Origin: Collinsella sp. AF33-16
Lineage (GTDB): Bacteria > Actinomycetota > Coriobacteriia > Coriobacteriales > Coriobacteriaceae
DNA length: 64,000 nucleotides
Assembly: GCF_003475325.1 (NCBI RefSeq)
Contig: NZ_QRQC01000001.1
Location: 1-64,000 of the forward strand
Direction: 5' to 3'
Shown here: piece after piece, positions 6,056 to 14,040 of the stretch
How the letters are laid out: each line of letters starts with the position of its first letter
Position numbering within the stretch: position 1 is the stretch's first letter
Program-made: the position numbers and the translations under genes
Notes under the pieces: model-generated
Told to the model about the DNA's origin: nothing
The model's input: only the letters and a program-made list of their open reading frames with translations
Database searches by the model: none

Positions 6056-6236
6056 GGGAAACCCTTTCGCGTGATTGCGGCGCGCGCGGGGCGCTCCGCT
6101 ACGGTACAGTGTTCATCATTGTACCTGTCTGGCGCAAAAAAGGCGCGCTCGCTGCGGCGTTACATGCCTGCAACATGAGCGTAAGGGGGAAGGCCGCACG
6201 GGGAAGAGCCGTCTGGCGCGTGTCCGGCTCGTGTTG

Positions 6237-6300
6237 GGTTGATTTCCGATCTCAGCCGAACACATTGAGCGGACAGGCCGTTCCCGCAGTCAGCCGAACG
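6237..6300 (+). repeat. 64-bp direct repeat, left copy (candidate attachment site)
   Basis: This block, starting GGTTGATTTCCGATC and ending CCGAACG, is repeated at 13866-13929 in the same orientation with 62 of 64 positions identical. It sits beyond the 3' end of the integrase remnant, where an att core is normally found. Between 6300 and 6451 there is no gene; I see several GC-rich hairpins, for example CCGCGGC / GCCGCGG near 6365-6382. Confidence 0.6.
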
Positions 6301-6451
6301 CCTCCGACGGCTGATTCCGAACTGGAAGCGGAGGGCATCCCCGCCCTTCGGTAGGGGATACCGCTCCGCGGCGCATGCCGCGGGCGGCGCCCCTATCGGA
6401 CCACCGTGACCTCAGTTGGGATGGGCCCAGCACTGCCGCGTACTCGGTGAG

Positions 6452-7177
6452 CTAGAGCCAACTGTTCGTCTTCACGTCGCGTATGGCGATATTTCGGTCG
6501 TCCGGCTCGGTGATGCCGTAGCCGAACGCCTGGAGCGTCTCGATGGACTCCTGGATCCTCTGTTGGAACATGGGACCCGGATCGACCCTCGGCCCGAGGT
6601 GCCCGCGCCAAAGGCACGGCGTGGCGCGCAGCATGTTATGGATTTTGGAGATGGGCTCGATGTCGGCGTAGACGTTGAGCGTCGCCATGGCGTCCTTGTG
6701 GCCGAGGATCGATTGGAGCGCCTTGATATCGCCGCCTTGGCGGATCCACTGCGTTGCGAACGTGTGGCGAAGGCCGTGGAACGTGATCAGCTCGTCGTTG
6801 GTGCCCATGAGGCCGTTGGTCTCCGAGAACGTCTTGAACGCCCTGCGGATATAGCTTGTCGTCGCGAAGGTCGCGCCCGGCTCCGACAGGATGTAGCAGT
6901 CCCCGATCTCGACCGCCCCGGTAAGGCCGCGCAAGCGCAGCTTTCCGCAGTCGATCTCGTGGGTCTCCTTCAGGAAGGGGAGTAGGCCGACCGGGTCGAT
7001 GGGGATACCCCTGGCGTCATGGGTCTTGGTGTCCTTGATGAACGAACCCATTCCCTTCGCGTACGCCACCGAGTGTCTGATCGAGATCAGGCCCGTCTCG
7101 AAATCCACATCGCACCACCGAAGGCCGCAGACCTCGCCGATTCGCATCCCCGTGTGCAGGGCGAGTACGACCGCCCT
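6452..7177 (-). pseudogene. Tyrosine recombinase (integrase), 5'-truncated
   Basis: The frame encodes the catalytic domain of a phage-type integrase. The first Arg is in MRIGEVCGLRW, then HGLRHTFATQW, LGHKDAM and the nucleophile-bearing NVYADIEPISKIH. The open reading continues upstream only to RAVVLALHTG and then meets the TAG that ends the XRE gene (7178-7180). The arm-binding and core-binding domains, normally 150 or more residues, are missing. Internal ATG 7147 could start translation, but the product would lack DNA-binding parts. All catalytic boxes are intact, so the truncation is probably a deletion fused to the XRE locus. Confidence 0.75.
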
Positions 7178-7429
7178 CTAATCCTCGGCGGACCAATCGA
7201 GTCCGAACTCCTTTCGGGCATCCTCTTCGCTCATGACTTCGAGAAGGTCTCCGGGTTGGCAACGAAGGGCGAGGCATAGCTGCTCGAGTGTGTTGAAGCG
7301 AATGCCGCGAATATGCCCTTTTTTAATACGGGACAGGTTCACGGGCGTGGTTCCAATCCTTTCGGCAAGTTCGTTCGAGGAAATCTTTCGCTCGGCCATG
7401 ATCTTGTCGAGGCGAACAATTACGGGCAT
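7178..7429 (-). CDS. XRE/Cro-type helix-turn-helix regulator (YozG-like)
   Basis: 83-residue HTH protein. An N-terminal VRLDKIMAERKISSNELAE helix leads into the HTH IGTTPVNLSRIKKGHIRGIR, then LEQLCLALRCQPGDLLEV. This is the compact regulator class usually paired with DUF2975 membrane proteins. That partner (7439-7951) lies 9 nt upstream on the same strand, so the two are almost certainly co-transcribed. The stop codon abuts, in the same reading frame, the truncated integrase, which marks a recombination junction. DNA target and signal are unknown. Confidence 0.88.
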   Translation of the reverse strand: MPVIVRLDKIMAERKISSNELAERIGTTPVNLSRIKKGHIRGIRFNTLEQLCLALRCQPGDLLEVMSEEDARKEFGLDWSAED

Positions 7430-7438
7430 GGCGTTTCC

Positions 7439-7951
7439 TTACGCAATCTCGTCGGAGTCGAGGTACAGCTCTCGGGCGTACAAGAAGAGCTGGGAAAGCA
7501 TGAACAGGACGATGCCGAGAACCAGAGAGGTCCAATCGAATGATGAAGCGATCTCTTGGGCGCCGACGGCCCCCTCGCCGCCAAACATCGAAACGGAGGT
7601 TTTGAGTGAGCCGGCGTAGAGGCTGGTGGCAGCTTGAACAACGAAGAGAATGCCGAGCACCTTCAAGCATGTCGCAGACCCTTTCTTGAAGGGGTCTCCG
7701 CTCTTGATCGTCCACACGAGAACGGCGCTGAGGATGGTCGTAGCGATACCGATGACGGCAGGGACCAATGTCGAGATCGCAAGGGCTGGATACGCGGGGG
7801 AGTCTGCAATTACAGGGTTGTCGAGCACTTCGATTGCTGGCTTTAAGGAGAACGCCACTTGTGCGATGGCGGTGGCGCAAAGGGTCGCAGAGGCTATCGC
7901 ACATGCGATGCGGAAGGAATGAAGCCGGGGAGTGCGATTGTCGGAACTCAT
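7439..7951 (-). CDS. DUF2975-type four-helix membrane protein
   Basis: 170-residue membrane protein with four predicted helices: about residues 12-33, 55-82, 95-117 and 138-160. It ends in a short charged tail (RELYLDSDEIA). Size, topology and the downstream YozG-like HTH gene fit the DUF2975 family, whose function is not established but which is often found as a membrane protein/regulator pair. The ATG at 7951 has CGGAGG upstream. It is divergent from the secreted-peptide/ABC cassette and may sense or regulate it; that link is inferred from position only. Confidence 0.75.
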   Translation of the reverse strand: MSSDNRTPRLHSFRIACAIASATLCATAIAQVAFSLKPAIEVLDNPVIADSPAYPALAISTLVPAVIGIATTILSAVLVWTIKSGDPFKKGSATCLKVLGILFVVQAATSLYAGSLKTSVSMFGGEGAVGAQEIASSFDWTSLVLGIVLFMLSQLFLYARELYLDSDEIA

Positions 7952-8071: not shown

Positions 8072-8437
8072 ATGTTCAGTACTGTTAAGTCGTGTAAGCT
8101 CTTGGTTTTCCTCGGCCTCGCTCTTTGTCTGTTGCTGCCGGGAGCCCCCGCTTTTGCGGATACCCCGATGCCTCCTTCCCAGGAGAGCAGCCAGTGTGCC
8201 CTCGTTGAGCCCCTCGGGTATACGGACGACGTCGTCGATACCTACTGGAGCTACAGCTGTCCTCGCGGCGTAAGCGGGCACAGCATCTCGATGTTCAACA
8301 TCTCTTACAAGACGATCTCCTACCGAAATGGCTATCGCCGATCCGCGCATCATAGGGAATCCCGCCTCGCTGCAATGTGCTCCTGTGGTGTTCTTGGCAC
8401 AACTGATAAATGGCAATTAGTCTATAGCACCTACTAG
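8072..8437 (+). CDS. Small secreted Tyr/Cys-containing protein A (candidate bacteriocin-like peptide)
   Basis: 121 residues. A classical signal peptide (basic start, Leu-rich core LLVFLGLALCLLLPG, cleavage after AFA at about residue 29) leaves a mature chain of about 92 residues. That chain has four Cys, a Tyr-rich central part (ISYKTISYRNGYRR) and a C-terminal LVYSTY. I do not recognise the family. First gene of a cassette with two permease/ATPase modules and a second small secreted Tyr-rich protein, an arrangement reminiscent of lactococcin-972-type bacteriocin loci. The ATG at 8072 follows GGAGAGG at 4 nt; the in-frame TTG at 8060 has no such site. Function unproven. Confidence 0.65.
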   Translation: MFSTVKSCKLLVFLGLALCLLLPGAPAFADTPMPPSQESSQCALVEPLGYTDDVVDTYWSYSCPRGVSGHSISMFNISYKTISYRNGYRRSAHHRESRLAAMCSCGVLGTTDKWQLVYSTY

Positions 8438-8441
8438 ATGC

Positions 8442-8473
8442 GAGGAAGGGCCGAGCATTTTGTTCGGCCCCTC
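8442..8473 (+). promoter_or_regulatory. Intercistronic hairpin between peptide A and its permease gene
   Basis: GGGCCGA (8448-8454) pairs with TCGGCCC (8464-8470), and GAG / CTC extends the stem past a two-base bulge. No T-run follows, so complete termination is unlikely. Hairpins in this position commonly lower expression of downstream transporter genes relative to the peptide or protect the upstream mRNA end. Confidence 0.55.
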
Positions 8474-8503
8474 TGTTCCGACTGGATGAGGTTAAGGTTG
8501 GCG

Positions 8504-10726
8504 ATGAATATGCTCAAAATCTCGAAGGCGATCTTTAGGTCGCTTCTCTCCTCCAGGTCGCTCTGTGTTGTCGTTGTTGCGTTGATGGTTCTTTGTGCTC
8601 TGCCCGTCTTCAGGAGCGCGGCTGGCATCGACGGACGGGTCGAATACCTCGAGTCGGGAATAACCCGTGTTGAGCAGGAATTGTCAGCATCCTATGCGGA
8701 TGCGCTTGTGAATGCGGGGGAGGACGGTGTCTATACCTCTTCATCAAGCATGCCCGCGCTTCTGTACCCTCTTGCCGCGGGACGTCTTATCTTGGCACCG
8801 CTCTCTCCCCTACTTCCGTTTCTGCAGATATCGGATGGAGAGTACACCTATTATGACGGATCGAAGGAGTACTTGCTATGGGTCGCAACGGCCGTTGCCG
8901 TCTCGTTCCTTGCCGCGCGTCTTAACAAACGTGAAAAGCTCATCATCCAGGCACCGATGGGCGAGCTGGGTAGACTTGTTGCATCGAGCGTATGGGCGAG
9001 TGTTTTTGCAATGCTTGCCGTCCTCGCCATCAATCTTCCAGGGATAATCGCCGCGCTTGTGAAGAATGGCCCGGGCTCGCCGTTCTATCCGATAGGCTAC
9101 ATTCAATATGCGACTCCGGTTATCAAACCGGCTTGGCTGGTGTTCGCGCAGACGGCCATCTTGCAATTCTTGGTGGCAGCGTTCATCTCGCTTGTCGTTC
9201 ACCTTGCCGTGAAGATTGCCAATAACCCTACGCTTGGAATCGTGTTCGTATGTGCCCTGATGGGGGTGACGATGGTTCCCGGGTATTACGGAAGATCCAT
9301 CGCTTTACGTGAGTTCGCCCTGTTGAATCCCCTTACGTATGCGAACACTGAGTTGACCGTCGGCGCCTATAGCCCGTACCCGACAACGCAGATAGTGAAT
9401 CTGCCTGGACTTTGCTTCGAGCGTGGCGCGATTGCCCTCGTATGCGCAATCGGGATCGAGGTGCTGGCAATTAGCCTGCTTTGCGTTGCTGGAAAGAGCG
9501 GCTGCGCGTGCCCGATATCCCCGATTTGTCTTGAGAGAGGTTCCTTCACTGCATCGAGAACGGCAACTCGTTCGAGCGCTTGTGCCTCCGCCGTTGCATA
9601 CGTAAGAACGATGGGGAAACTGCTCCTGCGTTCTCCTACCCTCGCCGTATGCGCGATTGCAATGTCGACGACGATGCTGGCCCCGGCTCTGGTCGAGATG
9701 TTTCCTGACGCTGATAACGTTTCCGCTGTTCGGTATAGGGATGGGGAGCTCCGTTCAATAGATCGGTATCTAGAGCAGAACGCTGCGAATATGGACGTCG
9801 AGGGCAAAGCGGCCCTGGAAGACATGCGGGATGCTCTTTCGGGTTTCGTGTACGCGCCTATGCCTGCGGAGGGGTTTCGAAGCCTTGCGACGTACGAGTG
9901 CGCTCGAGGTGAGCTGGGCGCGGCAGATGCGACTCTCCTGCAATCGATCGGAATCGAGCCGGAGACTCCTTCTCGTGCGGAGGCGCGCGCCCTTCTGCTT
10001 GAGTCGATCGCGAGCTTGCCGGACCCCAAGGTTTACGAGTTAAGTACGAAGATGCCCCCATTAATCCTCCTTTCGTATCTCCAGGCAGCGCTTCCCTCCT
10101 TATTTTTGCTGTTGCCCGTGGTTGTCACATCGCTCGCGTGCACCCACCTGCAGTGTCGTTCCCTTCTGGTTCTCCAGATCCCCGCAACAGCGCATGTGCG
10201 TTTTCTGACGGCTGTTGCGCTGGCTCTCCTGCTTGGCTTGGTGCTGCTTTTGGTGTCGATGGTTCCCGCTGTCGTTGTGTCCGTGATTAAGAACGGTGCG
10301 GGTGGATCGGAGTATCCCGTCGCTCTCATTCGGGCGGGAGCTTCGACAACGTCCATGGTGGGGGAGGCGGTGTTGTGCAGTATTCCGTTGCTGGTCATGG
10401 CATACGGCGTGATTTCCGTCGTCGCTGCGTTGACAGCAGCGATTAGCCGCAACCCCGTTGTCACCGGAATGGTTTGCGCGGTTCTCTTGGTGTTGGGTTC
10501 GTTGAGCGCTCATGTTGAAAGCGTGGGCATGGGCGTCGCGCTGCTGGCTCCATTCGCCTCGTTTGATCCCGCTTCCCAGGTGGGGACGATTGGGTTCCTT
10601 GGGCGAGGGACGAACGCGATGCCTTTTGGAGAGGTCGTCGGCGCATCGGGCGCTCTGCTGGTGGTCTTGGGCGCCGTATCTCCGTTGATGGTGCGCCTGA
10701 GTGTTCCAAAGATCGAAAGGGGATGA
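8504..10726 (+). CDS. Double-length ABC permease of the secreted-peptide cassette
   Basis: About 740 residues, made of two related membrane halves. Each has an N-terminal helix, a long extracytoplasmic segment and a cluster of about six helices. The signature VKNGPGSPFYPIGYI in half 1 corresponds to IKNGAGGSEYPVALI in half 2, each after a hydrophobic helix. The fused transporter downstream has LNGSGQIGYPIAFF at the equivalent place. One polypeptide thus probably supplies both transmembrane domains to the ATPase at 10732-11472. Several in-frame ATGs exist; I chose 8504 (AAGG 6 nt upstream, MNMLKIS start), although 8510 is equally possible. It could export or confer immunity to protein A. Confidence 0.7.
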   Translation: MNMLKISKAIFRSLLSSRSLCVVVVALMVLCALPVFRSAAGIDGRVEYLESGITRVEQELSASYADALVNAGEDGVYTSSSSMPALLYPLAAGRLILAPLSPLLPFLQISDGEYTYYDGSKEYLLWVATAVAVSFLAARLNKREKLIIQAPMGELGRLVASSVWASVFAMLAVLAINLPGIIAALVKNGPGSPFYPIGYIQYATPVIKPAWLVFAQTAILQFLVAAFISLVVHLAVKIANNPTLGIVFVCALMGVTMVPGYYGRSIALREFALLNPLTYANTELTVGAYSPYPTTQIVNLPGLCFERGAIALVCAIGIEVLAISLLCVAGKSGCACPISPICLERGSFTASRTATRSSACASAVAYVRTMGKLLLRSPTLAVCAIAMSTTMLAPALVEMFPDADNVSAVRYRDGELRSIDRYLEQNAANMDVEGKAALEDMRDALSGFVYAPMPAEGFRSLATYECARGELGAADATLLQSIGIEPETPSRAEARALLLESIASLPDPKVYELSTKMPPLILLSYLQAALPSLFLLLPVVVTSLACTHLQCRSLLVLQIPATAHVRFLTAVALALLLGLVLLLVSMVPAVVVSVIKNGAGGSEYPVALIRAGASTTSMVGEAVLCSIPLLVMAYGVISVVAALTAAISRNPVVTGMVCAVLLVLGSLSAHVESVGMGVALLAPFASFDPASQVGTIGFLGRGTNAMPFGEVVGASGALLVVLGAVSPLMVRLSVPKIERG

Positions 10727-10731
10727 TCTCG

Positions 10732-11472
10732 ATGATTGACCTTCAAACGCTGACGATCTCTTATGGAAAGAAGGTGCTCGTAGATTCGGTGAACGCTGAG
10801 TTTGCCCCGGGTACGGTCTACGGTCTCGTCGCTCCGAACGGGCATGGAAAGACGACGTTGCTGCGTGCGATGGCAGGTTTGCCGGGTCCTCGCGTGGACG
10901 GGAGCATCGTTCTGGATGAGGTGCAGGGTACGGGTGCGAGAGAGGTCCGTTCTATGATCTTCTATGCACCTGGTGAGGGGACGCTGCTGTATCCCGGATT
11001 GCGTGCGGAAGATCACCTCAAGATGGTTTGCGATATGTGGCCGCATGCTCGCGATATCGAAGAGATAGTGGAACAAACGCAGATAGGCGAGTTCGCGAAG
11101 ATGAGGATCCGCACTCTGAGCCAGGGCATGAAGCAGCAGCTTACCCTGGCGATTGCGTATGCGACGGGCGCGCGGTACCTTCTATTAGATGAGCCCATGA
11201 ACGCGCTCGACCCCAGCAGGGTGGACTTGCATTCCGAGATTCTCAGGAAGCTGGCCGATTCTGGTACGTGCATCATCATGTCATCCCACATCTTGGATTC
11301 GGTCGATAGGCTGTGCGATGAGATTCTGTTTTTGAAGGATGGGAGGCTCATTAGAAACATTCCGCAAGATGATGCTGCGCCGAAGTCTCCTGGATCCCAT
11401 TTCGCAAAGCCTGCTGGACGCGCCGAGGGTGCGCTAAGCACGTATCGGCGACTCTACGAAAAGGGCGGGTAG
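10732..11472 (+). CDS. ABC transporter ATPase
   Basis: About 246-residue nucleotide-binding subunit that would energise the preceding permease. Walker A is in APNGHGKTTLL, the signature is LSQGMKQQ, Walker B is YLLLDEPMNALD, and the switch His is in SSHILDS. It belongs to the single-domain export-type class seen in bacteriocin and peptide transporters. The gene overlaps or abuts the permease stop. AAGGGG sits directly on the ATG at 10723 but 9-10 nt before the ATG at 10732, so I prefer the latter. It shares the APNG..GKTTLL and S.GMKQQ wording with the fused transporter at 11626. Confidence 0.88.
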   Translation: MIDLQTLTISYGKKVLVDSVNAEFAPGTVYGLVAPNGHGKTTLLRAMAGLPGPRVDGSIVLDEVQGTGAREVRSMIFYAPGEGTLLYPGLRAEDHLKMVCDMWPHARDIEEIVEQTQIGEFAKMRIRTLSQGMKQQLTLAIAYATGARYLLLDEPMNALDPSRVDLHSEILRKLADSGTCIIMSSHILDSVDRLCDEILFLKDGRLIRNIPQDDAAPKSPGSHFAKPAGRAEGALSTYRRLYEKGG

Positions 11473-11474
11473 AA

Positions 11475-11606
11475 ATGCAAGTTAAAAATCTATGTGGCCA
11501 ATGTGATACCGTTGAACCCGCATATCGATACCGCTCAGCCATTCGCCTCGCCCCCGTCGCACGTATCTTCATCCGGTCTGTTACTTTTAATCTAACGATT
11601 CTTTGA
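11475..11606 (+). CDS. Possible 43-residue small protein with CxxC
   Basis: The 153-nt gap between two ABC genes contains an ATG-started frame, MQVKNLCGQC..., ending at a TGA in the leader of the next gene. The upstream AAGGGCGGG could serve as ribosome-binding site. There is no signal peptide or membrane helix. It may be a real small gene, a leader peptide for the fusion transporter, or chance. I cannot distinguish these. Confidence 0.22.
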   Translation: MQVKNLCGQCDTVEPAYRYRSAIRLAPVARIFIRSVTFNLTIL

Positions 11607-11625
11607 GGAACGTAGGTGCTTCTAA

Positions 11626-13440
11626 ATGTACTGTCGACTTCTTCTCAAACTAATCCTAAGAGACAAGGCCGCATGGATTTGTACGCTCGTTCTCGCTGCA
11701 GCCTTTTCCGTCCCCATTGCGTTCAATTCACCCATCTACGGGCCCTTCTTTATGAAACAGGGCATGCAGGGCTTTGTCGACGCATTCAATACGCGCGCGC
11801 CCCAGGCCAGCGGCACAGACCTATCTCCAGAGCAGCAAGCTGACGCGGAGCTTGCAAGATACGCGAACGCCGCCCTTGCCGCTCAAACCGACGCCGCCTT
11901 TCTCGATTCTGCCGAGAGCTACTACGCGCTCATGGACGAAGGCTTCCAATCCGGGTCCATCGTGGGAGACCGAGAGACCAATGACGCGGAGCTCGCATAT
12001 TGCCGTGCCCTGAGCAGCTCCGGCATCACGGATATCCCGGCCTCCGCAAGCGACCTGCCATTCCTTTCCTTCCTGCCTTACGCCATTGCCGCGGCGCCGT
12101 CTTTCCTTCCCTTCATCCCCTTCCTTCTCTCGTCGATACTCGTGCTCGGCGCCACAAGGCCTGCGACCCTGGCGGCGAAGGCGCCCGCGCCCAAATTCCG
12201 GCGCCTTATCCAGATCGTGTTTTCGATAATCGCCGCGGGGACCGCGATGCTCCTCGCCGGCCTCGCACCCGGGGGCATTTACGCCTTGGCCCTAAACGGC
12301 TCCGGGCAAATTGGGTACCCGATCGCCTTCTTCCATGACGGCGCGCTTACCACCACGACCGCGGGAAACGTCTTCACGGCCCTGCTTCTCGCGCTGCTTG
12401 CGGGCGGAACCTTGATATCCGTTTGCTCCGCCGTCCTATCGACCGCAACGAGGCGCGTCCTCGCGGGCCCCCTTACCTCAGCGCTGCTTGTCGCGGCCCC
12501 GGCATTCCCGTTGCTGTCCGATTCGGCACTAGGGCATAATGCCGTGCTCGGGCTCCTGCCGCTGGCCGTGTTCTCGCCTATCGAGGCAACGGGCTACGTA
12601 GGATGCTTCCCGACAGAATTCATTGGCTCCGGTTCGGGCAGCGCATCGATGCTTGCCGTGGCCCTGGCATACGTCGCGGTCCTTTTTGCGGTCGGCGCCG
12701 TTGCGACACGTTCCCCCAAACAGCCTGGCCCCGCGAAAAAGCGCCATGGGCTCGAGCTTCTGGACGCGAGCGTGGGATACGGAAGCACGACGATACTTTC
12801 AATCGGGTCGCTTTTCCTGAGCCCGGGAACGGCGGCGGGCCTCGTTGCTCCCAACGGCTCGGGGAAAACCACCCTTCTTGAAGCGCTGTCGGGCCAATTT
12901 CCCACCCGCATCCGCTCGGGAAGCCTGGCGGCAGACGGAATCTGCCAACGTCGATCAGCCGAATTTGCAGAACTCGTCTACCTGAGCTCTTCGGGCGGCG
13001 CGGATCTCTATCCCACGCTATCGGCCATCGAGCACCTTGCTTTCGTTAGGGAGGCGTGGAAATCGGCCGCCGACATCGACTCGCTCTGCGACTCCCTCGG
13101 AATCTCCCCATATCTCGACAAGCCGACCCGTAAACTCTCGACGGGAATGAAGCAGCAGGTAAAGCTTGCCATGGCGATAGCGACCGATTGCCCGTACCTC
13201 ATCCTCGATGAACCGCTGAACGGCCTCGATCCGGGAAAGCGGAAAACCTCCTGCGACGCGATGCGCAGCGAGGTGGCGCGGGGACGCAGCGTGCTCATTT
13301 CAAGCCATCTGCTCGACGACCTGGCAGACCTCACCAACTCGTTCTACTTCATCGAGGCCGGCACGCTCGTGGAAAAGATCAAGTCGTCCTCGCAGACGCT
13401 CAAGCAGGAATACCTCGATACATACGAGGAAGGTGAATGA
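11626..13440 (+). CDS. Fused ABC permease-ATPase of the secreted-peptide cassette
   Basis: 604 residues. An N-terminal membrane domain (about 1-370) consists of a first helix, an extracytoplasmic segment and six or so helices including LNGSGQIGYPIAFF. A C-terminal ATPase (about 375-600) has APNGSGKTTLL, LSTGMKQQVKLA, YLILDEPLNGLD and the switch His in SSHLLDD. The membrane domain is related to each half of the upstream double permease, so this protein probably works as a homodimer. The ATG at 11626 lies about 9 nt after AGGTG. The gene overlaps or nearly overlaps protein B, indicating coupled expression. It may export protein B or serve in self-protection. Confidence 0.8.
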   Translation: MYCRLLLKLILRDKAAWICTLVLAAAFSVPIAFNSPIYGPFFMKQGMQGFVDAFNTRAPQASGTDLSPEQQADAELARYANAALAAQTDAAFLDSAESYYALMDEGFQSGSIVGDRETNDAELAYCRALSSSGITDIPASASDLPFLSFLPYAIAAAPSFLPFIPFLLSSILVLGATRPATLAAKAPAPKFRRLIQIVFSIIAAGTAMLLAGLAPGGIYALALNGSGQIGYPIAFFHDGALTTTTAGNVFTALLLALLAGGTLISVCSAVLSTATRRVLAGPLTSALLVAAPAFPLLSDSALGHNAVLGLLPLAVFSPIEATGYVGCFPTEFIGSGSGSASMLAVALAYVAVLFAVGAVATRSPKQPGPAKKRHGLELLDASVGYGSTTILSIGSLFLSPGTAAGLVAPNGSGKTTLLEALSGQFPTRIRSGSLAADGICQRRSAEFAELVYLSSSGGADLYPTLSAIEHLAFVREAWKSAADIDSLCDSLGISPYLDKPTRKLSTGMKQQVKLAMAIATDCPYLILDEPLNGLDPGKRKTSCDAMRSEVARGRSVLISSHLLDDLADLTNSFYFIEAGTLVEKIKSSSQTLKQEYLDTYEEGE

Positions 13441-13441
13441 C

Positions 13442-13786
13442 ATGAAACTATTTGAACAGCTGAAGTCCAACGCGTCGCGCATGGCTGTCTACGCCATCCT
13501 CGTGGCAACGGCTTTATGCGGAATCGCGGCACCCGTCTATGCGCTCAACGGAGAGAAAGGCGATGTCGAACCCGCGTACATGGCTTCGACGGTTAAAGAC
13601 CGGTACAAAGCCTTCTCTGGAGACACGTTTTACGTAGCAGAGTACGACACGATCTACCGTCAGCTTCGCTACAACAAGGGCTACGACTATCTAGGCGCAG
13701 AGGCAATCAGCTATACGTCGGGTTGGTACCGCTCCAACTATGGACACATAACCCAGTTCAAGTGTAACTACCGTGTGTACAACTAA
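13442..13786 (+). CDS. Small secreted Tyr-rich protein B (candidate bacteriocin-like peptide)
   Basis: 114 residues with a signal peptide (KLFEQLKSNASRM then VYAILVATALCGIAAP, cleavage after VYA near residue 34). The mature part is about 80 residues and very rich in Tyr, with one Cys. Its ISYTSGWYRSNYGH segment resembles ISYKTISYRNGYRR of protein A in position and composition. I do not recognise the family. A GTG at 13433 is possible, but AGGAAGG lies 8 nt before the ATG at 13442. It follows the fused transporter at 1 nt and is closed by a strong terminator, so A, the transporters and B likely form one transcription unit or two nested ones. Confidence 0.65.
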   Translation: MKLFEQLKSNASRMAVYAILVATALCGIAAPVYALNGEKGDVEPAYMASTVKDRYKAFSGDTFYVAEYDTIYRQLRYNKGYDYLGAEAISYTSGWYRSNYGHITQFKCNYRVYN

Positions 13787-13801
13787 AGCAACCGGCCGGG
13801 A

Positions 13802-13836
13802 CGAGGGGTGACGCAAAAGCGTCGCCCCTCGTTTTT
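13802..13836 (+). terminator. Strong intrinsic terminator closing the peptide/ABC cassette
   Basis: A 13-bp stem (13802-13814 with 13819-13831, one wobble) with an AAAA loop and T5. It sits 15 nt past the stop of secreted protein B and defines the 3' end of the cassette. Confidence 0.93.
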
Positions 13837-13865
13837 AACCATGTCAACTGAACCTAGTTCAGTTT

Positions 13866-13929
13866 GGTTGATTTCCGATCTCAGCCGAACACATTGAGCG
13901 GAAAGGCCGTTCCCGCAGTCAGTCGAACG
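13866..13929 (+). repeat. 64-bp direct repeat, right copy (candidate attachment site)
   Basis: Same orientation and 62/64 identity with 6237-6300; the two mismatches are a C/A and a C/T. Together the copies bracket the integrase remnant, XRE/DUF2975 pair and peptide/ABC cassette. Just beyond it, 13929-13959 forms a 12-bp perfect GC-only stem with a 7-nt loop. Confidence 0.6.
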
Positions 13930-14040
13930 TCCCCGGGGCCCTTCTCAGGCCCCGGGGACGGCATTTTCCCAGTTGAAGGAACGGTGGAGATGTGTTTCGA
14001 TGGGTCAGATTCGTGTCGTTCCGAAAAGACCGTGAACCTT

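Follow-up and report, generated by a model that had tools for sequence, protein, structure and literature searches.

In lantibiotic LanFEG systems an ATP-binding cassette (ABC) pump stands beside a secreted peptide, and ABC-type immunity has precedents in lantibiotic and other bacteriocin systems, as described in PMC8538875. In the lactococcin 972 loci of the Coriobacteriia, a peptide with a Sec-type signal is followed by a membrane protein and an ATPase. Here we describe a locus with the same gene order and signal type (the signal recognized by eye and hydropathy) in a 64,000-nucleotide stretch of Collinsella sp. AF33-16 (contig NZ_QRQC01000001.1, positions 1 to 64,000 of the forward strand; hereafter the window). 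The Coriobacteriia, to which the window belongs, are common gut commensals, and a limited search found little literature on their bacteriocins. We propose, with a probability of about 0.5, that the locus encodes Sec-exported bacteriocin-like peptides, pep1 and pep2, together with ABC-2 self-immunity pumps, the units standing in tandem on a genomic island. The genes and signals concerned are the following (aa, amino acids):

8072..8437, + strand: pep1, a Tyr-rich peptide of 121 aa with a signal sequence and a predicted four-stranded sheet
8448..8470, + strand: RNA hairpin with a 10-bp stem and no U run, between pep1 and the permease
8504..10726 (open reading frame opens at 8438), + strand: double ABC-2 permease with two homologous halves
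10723..11472, + strand: ABC ATPase of the double permease
11626..13440, + strand: permease–ATPase fusion (residues 1-368 permease, ABC-2/type V fold; ATPase C-terminal)
13442..13786, + strand: pep2, a Tyr-rich peptide of 114 aa with a signal sequence, a distant pep1 paralogue
about 13798..13836, + strand: intrinsic terminator, a hairpin followed by a T run

An earlier annotation made from the letters alone (the sequence-only reading) had described two signal-bearing Tyr-rich peptides flanking a double permease, an ATPase and a fusion on one strand, and every gene was found where it had been placed. The single strong terminator that it had drawn at the end was borne out as well (-33.3 kcal/mol, z -5.7; 0 of 200 shuffled sequences equal). 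The double permease likely starts at 8504, giving 740 aa, where an AAGG resembling a ribosome site was seen by eye. The arrangement is more than chance: among 98 other genomes searched, 12 carry this permease at 94-100% identity.

Signal sequences were identified by eye in both peptides: pep1 shows a lysine in the n-region, a stretch of hydrophobic residues and an AFA cut site, and pep2 has a VYA cut site. The mature part of pep1 (about 92 aa) contains eight Tyr and four Cys, and that of pep2 contains 13 Tyr in about 80 residues. Neither the peptides nor the double permease had a match in Pfam or NCBIfam at E values up to 1; the peptides likewise had none in PHROGs or PADLOC, and their matches in the Protein Data Bank (PDB) were at chance level, in agreement with the earlier claim that they belong to no recognized family. 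Single-sequence searches returned close or broken relatives, 42 proteins for pep2 and 24 for pep1; the frameshifted and truncated forms among these protein matches were discarded as evidence, being possible assembly errors. A small peptide found next to a distant permease seeded a profile that brought together pep1, pep2 and more peptides of divergent sequence, and an alignment search widened the family with divergent catalogue proteins (62 in all). pep1 and pep2 are paralogues within this one divergent family, which is marked by V-x-DT[YF], a strand Y[KR]-x-[IL]-x-[YF] and an ending like Y-x-[TV]-[WY]. At E 0.01 the profile matched 30 of 396 genomes of the class, which fall in 12 of 153 genera; of the matches near this threshold, several sit inside long frames and are probably due to chance. 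A wider profile matched five of 396 genomes in a sample of the phylum, all from the window's order, and the family is thus restricted to the Coriobacteriia in the genome samples searched. Two Cys positions were occupied together in 16 rows of the alignment and jointly vacant in 13, with the first alone in three and the second alone in none (the rows are related); many family members are probably held by a disulphide. A confident model of mature pep1, built from a 32-row alignment, shows four long antiparallel strands (predicted local distance difference test, pLDDT, 87.1; predicted template modelling score, pTM, 0.67; pLDDT about 62 in the first 20 residues).

This peptide family is tied to ABC-2 genes in several genera, which sustains the earlier suggestion of a secreted-peptide system with ABC genes that is foreign to the family libraries. 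A peptide-first set was defined as profile matches at E ≤1e-5 outside the loci of the permease search, giving 11 loci (L089-L099). All six single-peptide loci in this set (L089, L090, L095, L096, L098 and L099) adjoin an ABC ATPase and an ABC-2 permease, fused in two of them. Seven more single-peptide loci (L021-L026 and L029) stem from the permease search and are not independent. A tree of the permeases puts the window's fusion together with L096 and L098 (96/96), which both have a linked peptide and come from another family. Over 15 loci, peptide similarity and permease similarity were correlated (Spearman 0.42, p 0.004; for cross-family pairs only, 0.42, p 0.006), a pattern that shows co-inheritance, not specificity. 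In one of the loci, L021, the peptide/ABC unit is directly preceded by another ABC unit and by a protein of 235 aa with a single transmembrane (TM) stretch (L021:6179-9076).

As Sec export would make a dedicated exporter unnecessary for secretion, the most fitting role for the ABC-2 pumps is immunity or peptide removal. In the mechanism that we propose, pep1 and pep2 would be exported by Sec and released outside as small beta-sheet proteins that would kill their target. The double permease and its ATPase would serve pep1, the fusion would serve pep2, and both pumps would clear the peptide out of the membrane of the producer, a role already proposed for known ABC immunity systems. Between strains, the tandem units would swap parts, and strains that have lost a peptide and kept its pump would be immune non-producers. 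If true, the locus adds an antibacterial peptide family that is new and comes with its immunity genes, helps to account for the turnover of genes between strains of Collinsella aerofaciens, and supplies defined sets of strains (producers, strains without a peptide and strains without the island) that could be competed directly.

Gene loss was followed in 15 high-identity double-permease loci (the window, 12 genomes, L117 and L128); the strains are related, and the tallies of turnover are not independent counts. pep1 is intact in five of these loci (the window, L049, L050, L056 and, one residue shorter, L128), stopped early in one and absent from nine, while the permease is open in 14 and the ATPase in all 15. 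The eight pep1-less junctions that were examined showed two deletion types, and because one of these leaves the end of the pep1 gene, they represent deletions and not insertions. At least three pep1 loss events stand against one permease frameshift. These near-identical peptide-less loci are best read as peptide loss with the pump kept.

The fusion is present in 18 copies in 17 of the 43 genomes of the genus, with the searched permease part free of stops in all and frames of 602-655 aa. The slot behind it is occupied by pep2 in 10 copies and by a 142-aa protein in five, and is empty in three. One genome (G024) has two fusion copies with different partners. Two of the partnerless genomes (G005 and G036) contain all the ABC genes and no peptide detectable by profile; in the third (G019), pep2 lies on another contig. 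The ratio of nonsynonymous to synonymous substitution rates (dN/dS) relative to the window was about 0.5 for pep2 in the three most diverged copies and 0.14-0.19 in two near ones, and 0.24-0.39 for the fusion in six copies. The 142-aa partner is membrane-anchored, is unlike the peptides and begins at the same start ATG as pep2. It lies at L046:2230-2658 and also occurs in L039, L042, L045 and L047, has no Pfam match over the cut-off, and follows a near-identical fusion. A protein-catalogue entry (P0022) joins the N-terminal part of this protein to the C-terminal part of pep2, either by natural recombination or as an assembly chimera.

The permease has an ABC-2 (type V) fold, and no Pfam ABC2 membrane model scored over its cut-off for the window's permeases; the related permeases of L099 and L022 reached 20.1 and 9.4 bits, respectively, against a cut-off of 31.6 bits. 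The best NCBIfam match of the separate ATPase was galliderm_ABC (124.4 bits against a cut-off of 309.75; the fusion scored 78.5), its score for PmtC was 90.7 bits (cut-off 375), and the best match of the fusion was RbbA. The window thus resembles LanFEG in its pump beside a secreted peptide and in the nearest family of its ATPase, but differs in that its peptides have Sec-type signals. It likewise differs from the phenol-soluble modulin exporter PmtCD, since the window's peptides bear their own signals and are predicted beta-sheets and the ATPase scores 91 bits against the PmtC cut-off of 375. NosDFY, also among the fold neighbours, is not known as a peptide pump but as a maturation system of nitrous oxide reductase and, unlike the window, has no secreted peptide family.

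These neighbours allow a different, somewhat unlikely explanation, in which the substrate of the ABC-2 transporters is of a lipid, cell-wall or drug-like kind and the peptides help or regulate this transport outside the cytoplasm. The permeases are near in fold to NosDFY and to ABCA/ABCG-type lipid transporters, ABCA lipid transporters are the best PDB relatives of the ATPase in sequence, nine loci have permeases of the same family with no recognizable peptide, and the slot behind the fusion may hold a different membrane-anchored protein or nothing. However, a needed helper should not vanish in at least three ways while its pump stays open, and tandem peptides exist without an adjacent ABC gene.

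Several of our findings weigh against self-immunity as the role of the pumps. The ATPase scores far under the lantibiotic-immunity cut-off (124 versus 310 bits), NosDFY matches equally well as PmtCD, and both halves of the double permease group in the tree with the peptide-less loci L030/L031 (97/94 and 100/98). The sequence-only reading had named absence of the peptides from homologous loci as speaking against it, and such absence was found in part: to the losses of pep1 counted above are added nine loci with related permeases and no recognizable peptide (L027, L028 and L030-L036), which are a real argument. Peptide loss with a retained pump fits equally a pump with its own job; L049 shows the reverse, an intact pep1 with a frameshifted permease, and five fusion copies carry a peptide-unlike protein in the pep2 slot. 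A non-bacteriocin role is made possible by the permeases that lack a peptide, by the exchange of the partner protein and by the match to NosDFY, which is as good as that to PmtCD. Streptococcin B offers a limited parallel: according to PMC11796350, D39-like strains have no functional peptide and still have the immunity genes in the locus. These strains, however, do not express it on their own and are reported to be inhibited, so that case does not demonstrate protection by the retained genes; in the same paper, genes B and C of the lactococcin 972 loci are described as untested. As a side observation, in four of the peptide-less loci (L033, L034, L035 and L036) double permeases of this family lie near paired half-size permease–ATPase genes.

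The five tandem-peptide loci of the peptide-first set (L091-L094 and L097) add to this side of the balance, as none of them has a related permease or an adjacent ABC gene; ATPase-like frames lie further away in L091, L093 and L097. Small frames with 3-5 TM segments are found near the peptides in L091, L093, L094 and L097 (on the opposite strand in L094 and L097), and likewise in the single-peptide locus L090. Taking both kinds of locus together, we tentatively suggest, at somewhat less than even odds, a new class of bacteriocins that is specific to the Coriobacteriia, secreted by Sec as beta-sheet proteins, not related to lactococcin 972 and wired in two ways. Each single peptide would have a cognate ABC-2 pump for immunity, which is shuffled and stays behind when the peptide is lost; pairs of peptides would lack ABC genes, some having a small membrane protein as a possible immunity factor. 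The tandem pairs lie at L091:5949-6748, L092:5937-6739, L093:6161-7013, L094:6830-7668 and L097:5667-6613. In each pair one peptide keeps the first Cys and its partner has TG or DG in that place; of the L091 peptides one is broken, and of those in L097 one has no signal.

The sequence-only reading had likened the locus to lactococcin 972 systems, and this comparison held for the gene layout and failed for the family. That pep1 and pep2 are true lactococcin 972 members diverged past recognition is most improbable, even though the three-gene layout is common to the lactococcin 972 loci of the class and signal peptides and beta structure occur on both sides. PF09683 works within the class, finding true members in six of 396 genomes (L111-L116), yet misses both peptides, and a comparison of the peptide profile with a set of five lactococcin 972 peptides aligned only eight columns of the signal region. 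The permease type also differs: of three local lactococcin 972 permeases, two match DUF1430 below the cut-off and one matches FtsX just over it, whereas the window's permeases match neither, share no profile similarity with them and have the ABC-2 fold. Membership was rejected on these grounds. The window also has two tandem units, one with a permease–ATPase fusion, unlike the lactococcin 972-like scbABC. With regard to the beta-sandwich fold of lactococcin 972, the four-stranded model of pep1 gave no confident structural match in PDB or BFVD.

Regulator genes adjoin many of the peptides: two-component pairs at L090, L092 and L096 (by eye), LuxR-type multi-TM proteins at L022 (Pfam), L026 and L089 (both by eye), and helix-turn-helix (HTH) proteins in the window (Pfam) and at L095 (by eye). 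This would suit peptides that act as pheromones or surface signals sensed by the membrane regulators beside them, the ABC genes being a target or a modulator. We consider this unlikely, since the regulator type varies between loci, compact sheets with mature parts of 80-92 aa are large compared with known Gram-positive peptide pheromones, and bacteriocins too are controlled by such regulators. An action of the peptides on the host or on surfaces, as an adhesin, matrix or immune-active small protein matured or delivered by the transporter, seems quite improbable. Signal-bearing Tyr-rich beta-sheet proteins of a gut commensal would suit such a role, and their frequent loss suggests a dispensable niche trait; on the other hand, export by Sec needs no more than a signal sequence, no anchor to the cell wall was seen by eye in either peptide, and an intact pump without its peptide would be purposeless.

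The locus reaches further upstream than pep1 and is flanked by repeats:

6233..6306, no strand: left 74-bp imperfect direct repeat, 93% identical to the right copy; a dispersed repeat of the genus
6452..7147, - strand: C-terminal part of a truncated integrase (Phage_integrase, 68.7 bits)
7178..7429, - strand: HTH_26 (Cro/C1-type) regulator (Pfam, 75.2 bits)
7439..7951, - strand: DUF2975-like membrane protein, candidate partner of the HTH protein (Pfam, below cut-off)
13862..13935, no strand: right copy of the 74-bp repeat

Together with the peptide and transporter genes, the genes listed here make up an island of 8 kb; the same site is empty in 11 other genomes that were examined. In these genomes, chosen from the 43 of the genus, an ACT-domain gene and rpmE are about 305-351 bp apart with no island gene between them, compared with 8.1 kb in the window; a fusion copy was found elsewhere in seven of the 11. 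The permease is 95-100% identical in 12 loci, eight from Collinsella aerofaciens and four from Collinsella sp. or uncultured Collinsella. Between strains, the integrase, HTH, DUF2975, permease and ATPase genes are 96-100% identical, compared with 92-96% for gltA and 93-96% for secA. Recent exchange of the island's left part is therefore likely but not proved, because the ACT gene and rpmE are likewise 97-100% identical and the fusion 95-98%. The 74-bp repeat was matched in 21 of the 43 genomes, with up to ten listed copies per genome; such a dispersed repeat was rejected as proof of integration sites and may supply homology for island exchange. Carriage as phage or plasmid cargo was unsupported: pep2 had no confirmed match in viral_contigs, the peptides and double permease had no PHROG hit, and the double permease had no match in PLSDB.

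The divergent DUF2975/HTH pair had been put forward as a possible control of the locus. The HTH_26 assignment stood, whereas the DUF2975-like protein reached only 21 bits (E 3e-4), under the 27-bit Pfam gathering cut-off; the pair may regulate the locus. The genes from pep1 to pep2 probably form two transcription units and not one operon, because a 153-bp gap lies 5′ of the fusion and the fusion with its leader is present at other genomic places too. The hairpin at 8448-8470 (z -2.1; 9 of 200 shuffles as good) is a possible attenuator or processing site and could reduce pump expression relative to the peptide.

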